This document shows positions 236 to 8,649 of a stretch of DNA of 43,478 nucleotides, in pieces; within the stretch, counting starts at the first letter, position 1; each line of letters opens with the position of its first letter. The position numbers were made by a program, and so were the translations under genes. Below the pieces are notes generated by a model. That model saw nothing but the letters and a program-made list of their open reading frames with translations, had not been told where the DNA came from and made no database searches. The DNA comes from Marinifilum sp. Its GTDB lineage: Bacteria > UBA9089 > CG2-30-40-21. Location of the stretch: assembly GCA_020717845.1 (NCBI GenBank), contig DYDG01000009.1, forward strand, positions 1 through 43,478, given 5' to 3'.

Positions 236-1750
236 ATGTCCTCCGCCGGAAAAGGAAAGAATATGAATTGGCAATCCATTATCCTTTGTTATCTATTTAT
301 AATTTGTTGTATTGCTGACAGTTTTGCTCAAGACAGCAGATCTGCACTGGATAAATTTACTCCTATGAATGAGCTGCAAAAAGAGACAGCAGGGGTGCTG
401 CCAGGCAGATATATGCTGATCATTGACTACAATGACCTTGCTCCGGATATTGTCCTCAGGTTAGAAAAATTGGATACATGGCTGCTTAAAAAAAGCGGCT
501 CCATGAACAGGGCAATTCGTGAAAAAACAAGGCTTGTGGCTGATCTAAAACAGGCTGCCAGAGAAGTAGAGCAGTTTTTGTCTGAAAAGGGTATATTAGA
601 GATGACAGAGAGGATAGAAAAAACTGATGCAAGGGATTATTTTGAGGCAGAACTATTTTTGAAAGAGGATGAGAAAGGAAGAAAAAACAAGTGGGAGTCC
701 CACCGCCATGAAAGGGCAGAGATTAATTATTGTCTTGGAAACATTAAATTTATCCAGATGGCATTTAAGCAGGCTGAAGTCAGCTATAAAAAGGCAAGTC
801 AGCTTGACCCGGACAACCCTGAGTATTTATATATGCTTGGGAGAACAAACGAATTGCTTGGAGATTATCGTCAGGCAATTCAATGTTTTGATAGGGTTAT
901 GTCCATCCATTCCAGGAGCTTTCCTAAAAACCACCCATGTATTGCACACGACTTAAACAATCTGGGGATTGCATATGACAGCCTGTGCCAACAGAGCGAT
1001 CTCAAAAAAGCGATTAAATGCTTTGAACAAAGCCTATCTATAACCTATAACCTTCCAGAGGCAGACCATCTTAATATTGCCAATAACTTGAATAATCTGG
1101 CCATATCCTATTTTTCCCTTGGTGAATATGAAAAAGCAATCCTTTACTATCAACAGGCTCTTTCTGTATTTCGAGGTATTCTAACTGAAGAGGATTCGCA
1201 TATTACCTGTATCCTGAATAATATTGCCTTATCCTTGTGTTCCCTTGAAAGGTATGAAGATGCGAAAAGATATTATCAGGAGGCACTGGAAATAAATATC
1301 AAGGTATGGGGAAAAGGAGGGAAGTATCACCCCTCAGTAGGTCAGAGCATGAATAATCTTGGATTAACATGCTACCTGCTAAAAGACTATTCACAGGCAA
1401 TTGAATACTATGAACAAGGATTAACTATCATCGGTAATAGCCTCGGACAGGATCATCCGGCTATGATTCAGACGATTAATAACTTAGGGCTTGCATGGTA
1501 TGGGCTTGGAGAATACAGAAAAGCTATCGGGTATTTTGAACAGGCATTATCCATTAATCGTAAGATTCTGGAAACAAACCATCCAGACATAGCCCTATCC
1601 CTGAAATATATTGGCATAGCTTTTTATTCACTGGGAGAGGTAGAAAAAGGGAAAGAATATCTGAAGAATAGCCTGAGTATCTTTCAACGCACACTCGGTT
1701 CAACACATGTCTATACAAAAAGCACTAAGGAATTGCTGGAAAAATTATAG
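236..1750 (+). CDS. secreted TPR (kinesin-light-chain-like) repeat protein; start probably at 263
   Basis: Signal peptide MNWQSIILCYLFIICCIADSFA; multiple TPR units such as LNNLGIAYDSL, NNLAISYFSLGEYEKAILYYQQAL and INNLGLAWYGLGEYRKAIGYFEQAL. Confidence 0.85.
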   Translation: MSSAGKGKNMNWQSIILCYLFIICCIADSFAQDSRSALDKFTPMNELQKETAGVLPGRYMLIIDYNDLAPDIVLRLEKLDTWLLKKSGSMNRAIREKTRLVADLKQAAREVEQFLSEKGILEMTERIEKTDARDYFEAELFLKEDEKGRKNKWESHRHERAEINYCLGNIKFIQMAFKQAEVSYKKASQLDPDNPEYLYMLGRTNELLGDYRQAIQCFDRVMSIHSRSFPKNHPCIAHDLNNLGIAYDSLCQQSDLKKAIKCFEQSLSITYNLPEADHLNIANNLNNLAISYFSLGEYEKAILYYQQALSVFRGILTEEDSHITCILNNIALSLCSLERYEDAKRYYQEALEINIKVWGKGGKYHPSVGQSMNNLGLTCYLLKDYSQAIEYYEQGLTIIGNSLGQDHPAMIQTINNLGLAWYGLGEYRKAIGYFEQALSINRKILETNHPDIALSLKYIGIAFYSLGEVEKGKEYLKNSLSIFQRTLGSTHVYTKSTKELLEKL

Positions 1751-2623
1751 CTGGGGTGTATCCTTCCACAACATCCTTGGAAATATCTTGGTTTGTAAGC
1801 TTAAATCCATGGGTTTATCCTCATCAATCCTTGAATCCCCATCATTATTTTTGCGATCTATAGGATCTTCACCCCACCTGTGATCATGGTCAAAATCAAT
1901 ATCCCTCTGCATATCTATCTTGATGCAGGCAATATCTCTTGCAGCTACGCTTGCAACAATATTGGCTGAGTTTATTACCTGCCCTGCTTTATTGTAATAG
2001 GTAAATAGATTATATGCCTTGCCAGTCCCATTACAGGAAGAACATGTCCCTGTACCATTACACATCCGACATATTCTATCTGTATTGCCTATTTCTTTCA
2101 AAATAACCTTAGACGAGGTTATTGTCCCGCTTTCAGAATCATAGACATCCTTTTTCAGCGACCATGAAGAATATGTCCCTTTATCAAGATAGTCAGCCAC
2201 CGTATAATAGCAAATAACCTCATCCCCAGTTGAACTGAATGTTCCTGGCGGGGTATTTGTTCCTACCTGCTGTTTATCATCCTTTATGAAATAAATCACG
2301 CTTGATCTTATTGTTCCATGATTGAGTTTTTGAGCATATACTGTTTCCGATGTTGTTCCAATAATAATCCCATTAAGCAATAATCTGGCAGACTGCAGAG
2401 AGCCTACTATTCCGCCTGACTTATCGCCTGCCTTTCCATAGATGGCAGCGGTTGTCTCCTGACGCATGGTTAATTGAGGCTCCATGGTTGTCCAGCTTTT
2501 TACCCCGCCAGAGAAAATGGCATAAACAGACAACATAATTATACTCAATCCAACAGTAGCTAATAATAACTCAATAAGGGTAAATCCAGCTGATGGTCTT
2601 TTGCTCATATTGCTTATCCCCAT
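1745..2623 (-). CDS. prepilin-type N-terminal cleavage/methylation protein (PilW/PulJ-like) with an embedded CxxCxGxG cysteine motif
   Basis: SAGFTLIELLLATVGLSIIMLSVYAIFSGG is a type IV prepilin leader/helix. Internal CRMCNGTGTCSSCNGTG. Confidence 0.85.
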   Translation of the reverse strand: MGISNMSKRPSAGFTLIELLLATVGLSIIMLSVYAIFSGGVKSWTTMEPQLTMRQETTAAIYGKAGDKSGGIVGSLQSARLLLNGIIIGTTSETVYAQKLNHGTIRSSVIYFIKDDKQQVGTNTPPGTFSSTGDEVICYYTVADYLDKGTYSSWSLKKDVYDSESGTITSSKVILKEIGNTDRICRMCNGTGTCSSCNGTGKAYNLFTYYNKAGQVINSANIVASVAARDIACIKIDMQRDIDFDHDHRWGEDPIDRKNNDGDSRIDEDKPMDLSLQTKIFPRMLWKDTPQL

Positions 2624-3390
2624 TAATAATACGACTCAGGCTTTGGGGCAACAATAGCCACCAATTGCCTTGAACTGGTCTTGCCGCCTGGTTTCCCGCA
2701 GGTAACCGCAACAGTAATTTTTTTATAATCATCAGGAAGAATGTCTCCAGCCCCAACACCCCCAACACCATCAGCCTCATCATCGACAAACGAGGCATTC
2801 ATGGTTATTGTCCCAATCATATCCTTATCTGCAATAGTTTCACCTTGTGAAGGGAAGATCATCAACCGTTGAAAACTTGTCCCATTAACAGAAAGTATAC
2901 CAAACAATCGTTGTGTTATGATGTTATTTGTGGTCAAGGTTATGGTAGCGGCAGTGATTCCATGTTCAACAGAAACATTTCCAGCTATGGTACTTGTTCC
3001 CTCATGCTCCCAGGTAATGGGCAATGAACCAAGATTATATCCAGTAGCAATGTAATCATCATCTGTATGGGCAATAACCCTTGCCTGTATCTCCACGCTT
3101 GTAGCTCCTTGAGGTATTATAACCGGATTGATAACACTTAAATGGAAGTGACTCGCCTGAGTACTTGTTGCAATTGCCTGATGAATATACTCATACCTGA
3201 GCCCCTTTACCTCTTCCAACAGCTCCTGTGACCTTGCCACAGCAACAGATTCATCCCATGATTTGATTATTGTTCGAGAACTGTTAAAAAAGATGGTAGA
3301 TGTTGTCAAGGAAACAATTAATAAAAGAAGCCCGGCAATCATTAATTCAACAAAACTCATTCCTGCTTCGGTTTTATTTTGCATACCCAT
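2623..3390 (-). CDS. prepilin-type protein (PilV/PulI-like)
   Basis: EAGMSFVELMIAGLLLLIVSLTTSTIFF prepilin helix; abuts the downstream prepilin gene. Confidence 0.8.
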   Translation of the reverse strand: MGMQNKTEAGMSFVELMIAGLLLLIVSLTTSTIFFNSSRTIIKSWDESVAVARSQELLEEVKGLRYEYIHQAIATSTQASHFHLSVINPVIIPQGATSVEIQARVIAHTDDDYIATGYNLGSLPITWEHEGTSTIAGNVSVEHGITAATITLTTNNIITQRLFGILSVNGTSFQRLMIFPSQGETIADKDMIGTITMNASFVDDEADGVGGVGAGDILPDDYKKITVAVTCGKPGGKTSSRQLVAIVAPKPESYY

Positions 3391-3498: not shown

Positions 3499-5526
3499 TT
3501 ATTGTGTACTCTTTTGAATATGAGGGGTAATAAAAATAACCAATTCTGTTTTTCGATTCTCACTCATGTCTAACCTAAAAAGTCTGCCGATAAAGGGCAA
3601 ATCACCAAACACTGGCACCTTACTTGTTTTGTTTGAGCCATGGTCATCTATTATTCCGCCAATAATTATAGTCTCTCCATCCTTGACCAATAACTGGGTC
3701 AGGGATGACTTGGTAGAAAGGATAGGTGTTTGAAATGCCCAGCCTTTGAAACTGCTTACCTCTGGTTTTACGGTAAGGGTAACACAATTATTGGGATTAA
3801 TAAATGGGGTTACTGTAAGCTGCACCCCAACCTGACGAAAAACAACATTACTTTGCACTATCCCTGCTTGAGATGTTGTTGTCTGTTGATAAGGGATCTC
3901 TTCTCCAACAACAATATTTGCCTCTTTCCCATGGAGGGTCATAATCCTTGGAGAGGACAAGACGTTTGCTTTACCCTCTGAAACCATAGCCGAGATCATG
4001 CCAGTGATATCATATCCGCTGGTTAGTTTTTTGTAAAAAAATTCTCCCCTATCCCCGCTCGGTGTAGTTTCTGTCATCAAGCTTGATCCACTAATCCCTT
4101 CTACCAAATCCCTTATTGACCACATAAATCCCAATTGATTTGTTTTATCTAAATAAACCTCAACAATCTTTGCCTCAATCATCACCTGTTTGGTCTCTGT
4201 GTCTACATCTTTTATCAGTTGCTCAATCCGTGGAAAATTACCAACAGTATCAGAAATAATAATTGCATTGGTTCGTGCATCAGCAGAAACCTTTCCAACA
4301 GGGGTTAACACACCAGCTACAATACCAGCAGCCTCATTAGCCATAGCATAGTTGAGATTAATAACCCTGATCATGGTCTCGCCAACAAGATTTTCTTTGC
4401 TATCAACACGAATAATATTCCCTTCTTTAAGATAGGTATATCCTTGAGTTTTCAAGATGATATCCATGGCTGTTTCCCATGGCACATTATCCAGTCGCAA
4501 GGTTACTATCCCCTTTACCGCTGCTCCTGGAACAATATTTATCCCTACCTTATGAGCAATCAATCTCAAGACATCAAGCAGATCAGCGTCTTTGAAATCC
4601 ATAGAAATAGTCTGTCCTGTAATTGTGGTTTTTTCTGCTGTTTTAGGAACAGCTACCTTTGGTTGTGATGTCTTTGATTTTTTATAAGCAACAGTTTTTG
4701 GCTTCTTCTTTACGGTTGTTTTTGATGGTTTAGATTGAGCAACATCCTTTTTCGCATCTTTTTTTTCTACAGCAGGTGCAGGTTTTTCAACAACCTCATA
4801 TTTTTTAAGGGTAAGAAGTACGGTTTTCCCTTGAGTTGAAACAGAATATGGAACTGATTCTGTTGTTTCAACGGTTATTCTGGCCACATTTATCGGGTCA
4901 ACACTTCTTTGTTGAACACTAATGCTGGTCACATATTTATCATCAGCCTTTATATCTGTCACCCTATCTGAAGTAGCATTGAGAAAGTCAAGAATAATCC
5001 GAGGTGGGTTCAGTGTTTCAAAATATTTATACTGAGGAGCTCCAGCAGTAGAGATAGCTACTATACTTCGGTCATCCTCTTCACGGATGTCAATTCCAGT
5101 GATAGCATAATCAACGTATGGATTTATAACGCTTAATTCAAGTCCATTTGGAATCTTGTTTATCTGATGTGGGATGGATTTTATCAATCCAACGATTATC
5201 CTTGTCTGACCCCCTTTTTGTTGAATTACCTGAACCCTGGTTATTCCGCCAGAAGAAACAGGGATCTCTTTTGGAGTACAGCTGGTTTTTGGCAGATCAA
5301 TAACTATTGACGGAGGCTCAGTTAATACCACAGAATCGTAATCTGTTATGGCTGCATCACCAACAAATACAATATTAACCTTATCCTGTAACCTTTCAAC
5401 CTGGACATCCAGCAGATTAACCTCTGCTTTTACTGTAGATATTAATACAGCATAGATACATATTGCCATGAAAACCTGATATAGCCTTTTCAATTTCAAC
5501 CACCTCTTCATTATTATATAGAACAA
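3499..5526 (-). CDS. pilQ: type IV pilus secretin PilQ with AMIN domains
   Basis: AMIN-like N-terminus, Lys/Pro linker, secretin core (GKANVLSSPRIMTLHGKEANIVVGEEIPYQ, VPVFGDLPFIGRLFR); sits in pilMNOPQ order. Confidence 0.95.
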   Translation of the reverse strand: MFYIIMKRWLKLKRLYQVFMAICIYAVLISTVKAEVNLLDVQVERLQDKVNIVFVGDAAITDYDSVVLTEPPSIVIDLPKTSCTPKEIPVSSGGITRVQVIQQKGGQTRIIVGLIKSIPHQINKIPNGLELSVINPYVDYAITGIDIREEDDRSIVAISTAGAPQYKYFETLNPPRIILDFLNATSDRVTDIKADDKYVTSISVQQRSVDPINVARITVETTESVPYSVSTQGKTVLLTLKKYEVVEKPAPAVEKKDAKKDVAQSKPSKTTVKKKPKTVAYKKSKTSQPKVAVPKTAEKTTITGQTISMDFKDADLLDVLRLIAHKVGINIVPGAAVKGIVTLRLDNVPWETAMDIILKTQGYTYLKEGNIIRVDSKENLVGETMIRVINLNYAMANEAAGIVAGVLTPVGKVSADARTNAIIISDTVGNFPRIEQLIKDVDTETKQVMIEAKIVEVYLDKTNQLGFMWSIRDLVEGISGSSLMTETTPSGDRGEFFYKKLTSGYDITGMISAMVSEGKANVLSSPRIMTLHGKEANIVVGEEIPYQQTTTSQAGIVQSNVVFRQVGVQLTVTPFINPNNCVTLTVKPEVSSFKGWAFQTPILSTKSSLTQLLVKDGETIIIGGIIDDHGSNKTSKVPVFGDLPFIGRLFRLDMSENRKTELVIFITPHIQKSTQ

Positions 5527-5669: not shown

Positions 5670-6263
5670 TTAATTCTTGCTTTTCTGCTTTTCTGCTGGT
5701 GAAAGATCTTCTTTTGATAAAAGATCTTGTTTTTCAGAAATATCTGCACCCTTTATCGTTACCTTTGTCTCAGACGCATCAAGCCCTATCATGGCTATCT
5801 TATCAAGCTGGGACAAGGAAATATATTTTTGATTAAGAATCCTTCCTCTCACACCCTTAATAGGATAATCTCCATAGAAGAGGATTCCATACCTTAAGAT
5901 AAAGGTATTCCCACCTGGTCCACGAACCAGGGCTATGGTCTCTTTTTTATCCCAGACAATACCAGTCAAAACAAGCTCAGTAATATCTACATCAGGGATA
6001 GCACTACCCTTTTTCGCCTGAACTACCTGTCCACTATCAACGATCAAGGGCATAAATGGATCTCTGCTATGAGCATTTTGATAAATGTAGTGTGGGGTTA
6101 TCGGTTTTTCTTTCAATGGTTCAGACAATATTTGCGGTGGTAACACAGCTACCTCTTTAGGCTTTTGCATAGTACATCCACTACAAACAACCATTCCCAG
6201 GACACCAATTATTATCGTTTTACCTATTAATTGCCACATAATTATATTCACCTGGTAATGCAA
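5670..6263 (-). CDS. pilP: type IV pilus assembly lipoprotein PilP; start probably at 6239
   Basis: Lipobox VVCSGC; DPFMPL and LTGIVWDKKETIALVRGPGG typical of PilP; operon position. Confidence 0.85.
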   Translation of the reverse strand: MHYQVNIIMWQLIGKTIIIGVLGMVVCSGCTMQKPKEVAVLPPQILSEPLKEKPITPHYIYQNAHSRDPFMPLIVDSGQVVQAKKGSAIPDVDITELVLTGIVWDKKETIALVRGPGGNTFILRYGILFYGDYPIKGVRGRILNQKYISLSQLDKIAMIGLDASETKVTIKGADISEKQDLLSKEDLSPAEKQKSKN

Positions 6264-6418: not shown

Positions 6419-6973
6419 CTACGGTTTATACACAAACGCAGTAATAACCATACTTGCAGATATCGTTGACGCATCTTCCTTATTCGGTGTCCGATAATTT
6501 ATCTGCACCCCTGATGGTGTCAATATCCTTTCAAGATTACCGATTGCTGCCAGAAATTTTCCAAAATTATGAAAGGTAGCCTGAGTTGCCAGATTAATCG
6601 GGATCTCCTCATAAACATCCTTGTGAAATGGACCAGACGGAACAAAAGTAGAAAAAACAACATGATTCTCCTGAGCAAGGGTAGTAATTGTTTTTATCAA
6701 TTCAGGCATATTTACCTCTTTAGGCAGCCTTGTTTCCACATAAGAAAGCTCTTCCCTGAGCTTTCTTACCTCTGCCTTTCGTATCTCTAAGTTGGCGACA
6801 ATATCCTGAATTTGTTTTAATTCATCGGTTTTAACTGCTATCTCCCTATCCAATTCTGCTGATTTTAATTGAAGCGGCTTATATCCATAATTTACAAAAG
6901 CAAAGATAGTAAGCCCTATAAAAACAATAATCAACCCTGCGGCTTTTAATTCTTCCTGTGAAAACTTCATCAA
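6419..6973 (-). CDS. pilO: type IV pilus inner membrane protein PilO
   Basis: N-terminal TM plus coiled coil (ELDREIAVKTDELKQIQDIVANLEIRKAEVRKL); operon position. Confidence 0.9.
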   Translation of the reverse strand: MMKFSQEELKAAGLIIVFIGLTIFAFVNYGYKPLQLKSAELDREIAVKTDELKQIQDIVANLEIRKAEVRKLREELSYVETRLPKEVNMPELIKTITTLAQENHVVFSTFVPSGPFHKDVYEEIPINLATQATFHNFGKFLAAIGNLERILTPSGVQINYRTPNKEDASTISASMVITAFVYKP

Positions 6974-7021: not shown

Positions 7022-7561
7022 TTAAATATTATGCGTACAACTAAGTTGAAAACTTCTTGCCGGATACTTATCAATCGTAATATTGTTAATATGGGCAATG
7101 TTAACATTAGTAAACACCTGTGATTCCATGAGCTTAAGCATATAGTTGGCAATAGAAAAATTATCCATTGCCTTGCCAACTATTTGCAGATCCTTACCAG
7201 AAGGATTGGTTAAGCTCTCAAGCCAGACGCCCTGAACCAGACAATTAGTCGTCTGATCAAAGAGCTTTGCCCAGATAAATCTATCCTTATCTAATTGAGT
7301 AATAATATCAAGCCTTTTTCTAAGCTCCTGAATCTCTGCATCAATAGCCTTAATCTCTATTAGATACGGCTGCAACTTAACAATAGCAGCCTTTAATTCT
7401 TCTAACTTCTCTTCCTTTCTCTTAACCTCAAGCAGTTGGTTGCTCCAGAAAAAACCTATCACAATCACAAAAGCAGACAATACTACTATGACTAAAATAT
7501 TTCTCCATTGTATCTTCTTCTTTGCTAAGAGAACTGGAGGCATCAGGTTTATATTAGTCAT
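7022..7561 (-). CDS. pilN: type IV pilus assembly protein PilN
   Basis: INLMPP N-terminus, TM, coiled coil, GVWLESLTNPSGKDLQIVGKA. Confidence 0.92.
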   Translation of the reverse strand: MTNINLMPPVLLAKKKIQWRNILVIVVLSAFVIVIGFFWSNQLLEVKRKEEKLEELKAAIVKLQPYLIEIKAIDAEIQELRKRLDIITQLDKDRFIWAKLFDQTTNCLVQGVWLESLTNPSGKDLQIVGKAMDNFSIANYMLKLMESQVFTNVNIAHINNITIDKYPARSFQLSCTHNI

Positions 7562-8649
7562 TACTTTAGCCCCCTTAAAGCTAATCCTATGGCTACCGTA
7601 AATGCAGAACCATATTTCTTAATAGCATTTACATTAACCTTTGGAGATACCTTTATATTGACAAATGGATCAGCAATAATCACTGGAATACCAAGACCAG
7701 CTGCCAAAAACTCATCTAAATTCTTTAATCTTGCGGTTCCTCCACTCAAGTATACCTTATCAATATTTTTACGATATACAGGCAGCTGGGTATAATAATA
7801 AGCAAATGACCGCTCTAATTCATCCAGAAGCCTTGCCCCTACAGATTCAATGGCATAAGAGATATGAGATATTCGTTCAGAATATGTGCCTGATGACAAA
7901 TCTTCACTCTGAATAATTACCCCTTCTGCCTCTTTTATCTGTTCTGCTTCTAAGAAATTTACACCCAACTCTCTTTTTATTGTCTCGGTAAAATCATTGC
8001 CACCAACCAGGATGTCTCGATTAAAGCAAGAACATTTATTTTCGACTACATTAATATTTGTCATCCTTGCCCCAATATCTACCAGAGCCACTACCTCTTC
8101 TTCCTTTCCATCTGATACCAGAGCATCCTCTATTGAAAAGGTATCTACATTAATATGAAGGGTTTCTAATCCAGATCGCTGCAATATCTCCATATGGTCA
8201 TAGATAAGCTCCTCTTTAGCAGCTACTAAGAGAACAAGTATCATCCTTTCATCTTTTTCAATCATTTCCTTTATTATTTGAAAATCAATAATCACATGTT
8301 CAATATCAAAAGGGATATGTTCCTCAGCCTCAAACCTGATAACATCTCGCAACTCTGTTGCACTCATGTGCGGCAATTTAACATATCGGACTACCACGGA
8401 ATTTCCGGAAACAGAGGTGCGAACCTTTTTAGTATCAATGCCATTATTATAAAGCATTGTTTTAATAGCCTTTACGGTTAATTCATGCTTTGCTCCGACT
8501 GCATCTTCATCTAATGGTTCTGGAGCAATCTTTTCTAATCCGATTCCGGTTAACATAACATTGTTGCCTACCTTTTTCAATCGGACAACCTTAACCGCAT
8601 CACTGCTAATGTCTAAACCTATAGAACCTTTTCCGCCACCAAACAACAT
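7561..8649 (-). CDS. pilM: type IV pilus assembly actin-like ATPase PilM
   Basis: IGLDISSDAVKVVRL, VDIGARMTNINVVE, VYLSGGTARLKNLDEFL. Confidence 0.95.
   Translation of the reverse strand: MLFGGGKGSIGLDISSDAVKVVRLKKVGNNVMLTGIGLEKIAPEPLDEDAVGAKHELTVKAIKTMLYNNGIDTKKVRTSVSGNSVVVRYVKLPHMSATELRDVIRFEAEEHIPFDIEHVIIDFQIIKEMIEKDERMILVLLVAAKEELIYDHMEILQRSGLETLHINVDTFSIEDALVSDGKEEEVVALVDIGARMTNINVVENKCSCFNRDILVGGNDFTETIKRELGVNFLEAEQIKEAEGVIIQSEDLSSGTYSERISHISYAIESVGARLLDELERSFAYYYTQLPVYRKNIDKVYLSGGTARLKNLDEFLAAGLGIPVIIADPFVNIKVSPKVNVNAIKKYGSAFTVAIGLALRGLK

Follow-up and report, generated by a model that had tools for sequence, protein, structure and literature searches.

A CxxCxGxG cysteine hairpin in a predicted minor type IV pilin of a Candidatus Desantisbacteria genus

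The pilus gene run and its terminal prepilin-like protein

The window analysed here, 43,478 nucleotides of contig DYDG01000009.1 (assembly GCA_020717845.1), belongs to a 2.55 Mb draft genome in 181 contigs, which is of the Candidatus Desantisbacteria lineage. It encodes a pilMNOPQ/pilV-like/pilW-like run that ends with a prepilin-like gene. According to profile matches, the type IV pilus machinery (pilM, N, O, P-like and Q) is encoded immediately upstream of the prepilin-like genes on the same strand. The features, with positions in the window, are:

236-1750, TPR protein gene, convergent to the prepilin-like gene
1745-2623, minus strand, prepilin-like minor pilin in PilW/J position, 292 amino acids, with a four-cysteine hairpin (open reading frame; N_methyl match; orthologues)
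1817-1897, minus strand, Asp-rich segment of that protein, residues 243-269 (kept in six of six aligned homologues)
2021-2071, minus strand, CxxCxGxG-T-CxxCxGxG hairpin, residues 185-201 (kept in the orthologues L029 and L030, absent from L031)
2510-2623, minus strand, class III signal peptide in residues 1-13 and, as far as residue 38, the N-terminal hydrophobic helix (sequence and profile; helix 16-38 in a low-confidence model)
2623-3390, minus strand, prepilin-like gene in PilV/I position, 255 amino acids, one cysteine, no CxxC
3499-5526, minus strand, PilQ secretin (Secretin 162.5 bits, AMIN, STN)
5670-6263, minus strand, PilP-like lipoprotein (PilP 17.9 bits, sub-threshold, and position)
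6419-6973, minus strand, PilO (93 bits)
7022-7561, minus strand, PilN (52 bits)
7561-8649, minus strand, PilM (194.8 bits)

The open reading frame at 1745-2623, which an earlier note had listed with no strand, exists and reads on the minus strand. Its ATG shares bases with the stop codon that ends the preceding prepilin gene (TAATG). The gene order, PilV-like before PilW-like, fits minor pilins of the I and J types, the J assignment being taken from this order; the PilW/GspJ family profiles gave no match beyond the N-terminal helix, where matches were sub-threshold (for example T2SS J, E = 0.01). The TPR gene adjoins the pilin gene in L029 as well, whereas in L031 another gene comes after the pilin.

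The prepilin N-terminus proposed in the earlier note was borne out by the class III signal peptide, an N_methyl match just under the cut-off and the pilus gene context. GFTLIELLLATVGL starts at G13, cleavage is predicted at G13|F14, and E18 is Glu5 of the mature pilin. The Pfam profile N_methyl matched the protein with E = 6e-4 and 19.7 bits, and with 21.1 bits in the whole-genome search (cut-off 21.2), while the orthologue of the congener G001, with its frame neighbours, exceeds the cut-off. Judged by its sequence, with G|F, Glu5, the hydrophobic helix and the type IV pilus gene context, the protein qualifies as a type IV prepilin; it is predicted to be extracytoplasmic and would probably be cleaved at G13|F14 and exported.

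Towards the C-terminus, the Asp-rich segment follows the pattern DxDxDxxxxxGEDPxDxxNNDxDxxIDEDKP, which is kept even in order-level relatives that have no hairpin and is partly common to very large proteins of other genomes. It resembles extracellular Ca2+-binding loops and may have a role in binding Ca2+.

The double motif and its distribution

The hairpin, CRMCNGTGTCSSCNGTG, has cysteines at residues 185, 188, 194 and 197 and glycines at 190, 192, 199 and 201, and DRICRMCNGTGTCSSCNGTGKAYNLF was confirmed as exact in the protein translation. Its spacing is CX2CX5CX2C with a one-residue linker. With the composition of the protein itself and linkers of 0-15 residues allowed, about 5e-8 occurrences of the double motif are expected by chance. 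At the DNA level, the double motif had 16 matches in ten related genomes, compared with none for a reversed control pattern. As the hairpin recurs in two congeneric orthologues, it is not an artefact of assembly or reading. With linkers of up to about eight residues, the double motif was found in the ten genomes only in DnaJ, in three pilins, in one PilB/GspE-type ATPase and in small multi-motif proteins of the congener G002. No CxxC was present in any other prepilin readable from the loci examined in four congeneric genomes, nor in the neighbouring PilV-like proteins of the congeners.

Of 386 genomes, 16 contained the one-residue-linker form and four the reversed control pattern; two or more of the forward matches are of low complexity. 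The window's protein is the sole prepilin among those with this form. Several of the other proteins are small and cytoplasmic-looking, and a few, including lipoproteins, are apparently exported. The short form is thus a recurrent natural motif with extracytoplasmic precedents. The earlier note went too far in calling the motif unexpected in exported proteins: arrays of this kind occur in unrelated genomes, in lipoproteins and in further proteins that seem to be exported. A c-type heme site (CxxCH) was ruled out by the Asn that follows each CxxC. No relatives were found in viral contigs.

Three orthologues were compared. Those at L029 (JASEHA010000005.1, 81-82% identical) and L030 (JAHIZN010000381.1, 72-74%) keep all four cysteines and all four glycines; their hairpins, CLSCNGTGLKGTATCPACNGTG and CTPCNGTGLKGTETCSVCGGTG, have a six-residue linker. 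The third, at L031 (MNYI01000089.1, Candidatus Desantisbacteria CG2_30_40_21, 62-68%), comes from the most divergent congener and has ARTGTGSYRIF without cysteines at the hairpin position. The congeners G001-G003 carry the same sequences as L029, L030 and L031. In the order-level relatives G005 and G006 (38 and 37% identical), the alignment likewise places no cysteines there. Of the two findings that the earlier note had named as refuting its reading, the first is partly borne out, since more distant homologues align without the cysteines (G003, G005, G006). The second, that this genome alone acquired the motif by a recent insertion, is refuted by the two congeneric orthologues. Compared with L029 and L030, the window copy lacks 15 nucleotides, five linker codons, exactly in frame and with both motifs intact.

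In a tree of PilV-like and PilW-like proteins, the three hairpin-bearing species group together (support 0.975) and the hairpin-less G003 falls outside. As G003, G005 and G006 have no cysteines at this position, a single gain within the genus is probable; the simplest reading puts it in the common ancestor of the three species, in preference to a gain followed by loss in G003; the 15-nucleotide linker loss would then have taken place in the window lineage after the gain. The hairpin is not a fresh insertion, since dS among the three carriers is 0.31-0.49. Because G003 retains the pilin without it, the hairpin is dispensable for the general role of the pilin.

How strongly the hairpin is maintained bears on the possibility that it is a selectively near-neutral loop insertion. 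On that view the hairpin was captured once, or was built where a Gly-Thr turn of the ancestor underwent local duplication, and has since been tolerated while it slowly drifts; the window lineage shortened it, and G003 lost it or never had it. The absence from G003, G005 and G006, the linker indel and the GT or TGTG that hairpin-less relatives have ahead of the next strand agree with such a history, as does a hairpin dN/dS like that of the rest of the protein. However, all eight defining residues are retained over a dS of 0.3-0.5. They are invariant in the three species, compared with four of the nine other hairpin columns (five vary; Fisher p = 0.02, with columns picked after the motif was seen and three sequences) and 43% of the flanking columns, and one cysteine codon has a silent TGT/TGC change among the carriers. 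Since the columns were chosen post hoc from three sequences and hairpin dN/dS is no lower than in the remainder of the protein, selection on the hairpin is weakly shown and suggestive. We consider the near-neutral history unlikely.

Zinc, disulfides or redox chemistry

The earlier note had described the motif as DnaJ-type. The CxxCxGxG pair is indeed exact and is the same repeat unit as in the DnaJ/Hsp40 cysteine-rich domain (PF00684), but the protein has two motifs, whereas DnaJ is a cytoplasmic chaperone with four motifs, two zincs and a J domain. PF00684 did not match the window protein, and the L029 and L030 orthologues reached 20.6 and 17.8 bits, below the cut-off of 32.7. A full DnaJ cysteine-rich domain was rejected on the number of motifs and for want of an over-threshold PF00684 match.

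In DnaJ, motifs 1 and 4 and motifs 2 and 3 share zincs, so that a pair standing alone is better modelled on Anti-TRAP. Anti-TRAP (RtpA, PF15777; PDB 3lcz) has two CxxCxGxG motifs with a start-to-start spacing of 14, and the pair binds zinc (PMC2896485). The same spacing of 14 is found in the L029 and L030 pilins (gapless alignment with 3lcz, E = 0.12) and in motifs 3-4 of the source genome's own DnaJ. Unlike these pilins, Anti-TRAP is a cytoplasmic regulator of 53 amino acids, and the PF15777 matches of the two orthologues are insignificant, scoring 12.9 and 7.2 bits where the cut-off is 32 (E = 0.11 and 6.7). The short form of the window had its best PDB match in BSD2 (PDB 6ekb, E = 0.16), a plastid DnaJ-type zinc-finger protein which differs in being a chloroplast chaperone with four motifs and a three-residue linker. 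The PDB search found no solved structure with the exact CX2CX5CX2C spacing; for this reason, and because of the one-residue linker, within-chain tetrahedral coordination in the window's form is putative.

AlphaFold2 gave low-confidence models (pLDDT 36.4 for the whole protein, 47.3 for the L029 orthologue trimmed to a globular part), of which strand order is the sole usable feature, and in both the hairpin lies between two strands. Foldseek with the trimmed L029 model gave no match in the PDB at E ≤ 0.001, and a PDB profile search with a six-homologue alignment returned mitochondrial bL32 alone (E = 0.38).

Many proteobacterial pilins have loops stapled by disulfides, in the D-region. Since the prediction places this pilin outside the cytoplasm, an exposed loop could be held in the same manner by C185-C188 and C194-C197 bonds or by crosswise pairs. 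However, ten genomes of the phylum (G000-G008, G013) yielded neither DsbA nor VKOR, and four congeners no DsbD_TM, while positive controls were detected. This suggests a lineage without a classical disulfide-forming pathway, in which thiols beyond the membrane may plausibly stay unpaired or bind metal, and favours metal over disulfides. The glycine spacing of CxxCxGxG is also that of metal hairpins, and CxxC is absent from all other prepilins read in the genus. We therefore regard a disulfide staple as rather improbable. The likeness to the DnaJ motif, for which the L029 orthologue scored 20.6 bits with PF00684, would fit a site of the kind proposed for DnaJ zinc centres, with redox or chaperone-like activity towards substrates in the periplasm or outside the cell. 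To this reading we give hardly any weight: the pilin has two of the four motifs and neither a J domain nor a domain for binding substrates, and no thiol pathway that could keep such a site cycling in the periplasm was found.

On balance we favour, with some confidence, a minor type IV pilin in which, in a single Candidatus Desantisbacteria genus, a CxxCxGxG pair has replaced a globular-domain loop, binds one Zn(II) and has a structural or contact role. From these comparisons we infer zinc binding, the hairpin fold, the geometry of the shortened loop, the location in the pilus and the function. The two-motif hairpin would have taken the place of the loop between two strands, and its four cysteines would most likely fold round one Zn(II), by analogy with the Anti-TRAP pair. 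Such a Zn(II)-stapled hairpin would form a small, rigid, exposed knob. This knob probably has a role in structure, in display or in contact, be it with an adjacent minor pilin, with PilQ or with a partner outside the pilus, and probably none in chaperoning or redox catalysis. That the hairpin is a reversible Zn(II) switch or a ligand-binding knob at the pilus tip seems to us very doubtful; equally speculative is the extension that the metal controls contact with a minor pilin or partner and that the pilus senses metal or redox state in anoxic groundwater or sediment.

Precedents and related CxxCxGxG proteins

C. difficile PilJ, which is left out of the argument here, is a zinc-containing pilin. 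Modular pilins are widespread, with 264 architectures in InterPro (PMC8179133), and in Streptococcus sanguinis PilB and PilC (PMC8179133) a minor pilin bears a module that is not pilus-specific, as here; in those proteins, however, a whole domain is linked C-terminally, whereas here the module is a loop within the globular domain, about 22 residues long and in the window 17. Pilins with grafted modules are thus already known, and the CxxCxGxG loop in a pilin is apparently new as far as we found; within a partial coverage of the literature, no paper on a CxxCxGxG pilin was found. The hairpin is a small, real graft, apparently undescribed, in a minor pilin of a small uncultured bacterial group only. 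The known pilin grafts thereby gain a very small, putatively metal-binding module, and one genus offers a natural series of no hairpin, full hairpin and shortened hairpin. If zinc is bound, this would mean that exported CxxCxGxG hairpins work where classical disulfide-forming machinery was not found.

The one-residue linker of the window is identical in L083/L115, L090, L092, L095, L098, L099, L101-L103 and L105. No prepilin is among these proteins, some of which appear exported; they are mostly small or multi-hairpin and have no assigned function. L083/L115 (genome G118) are two lipoprotein-like proteins with CxxCxGTG runs at a nine-residue period, apparently an exported zinc-knuckle array. 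L102 and L103 (G021, G308) are proteins of about 600 amino acids with a dozen or more CxxCxGTG motifs and are possibly surface-exposed. In G002, three loci (L033, L040, L046) encode proteins of 107-137 amino acids with about six CxxCxGxG motifs each, in apparent gas vesicle clusters with GvpN-like and ArsA-like neighbours, as read by eye. The source genome itself encodes a PilB/GspE-type ATPase (L041; G000 contig C38:4375-4421) with a compact CSNCKGSGCKECNGGG, presumably standing where such ATPases usually have a tetracysteine site with a longer loop.
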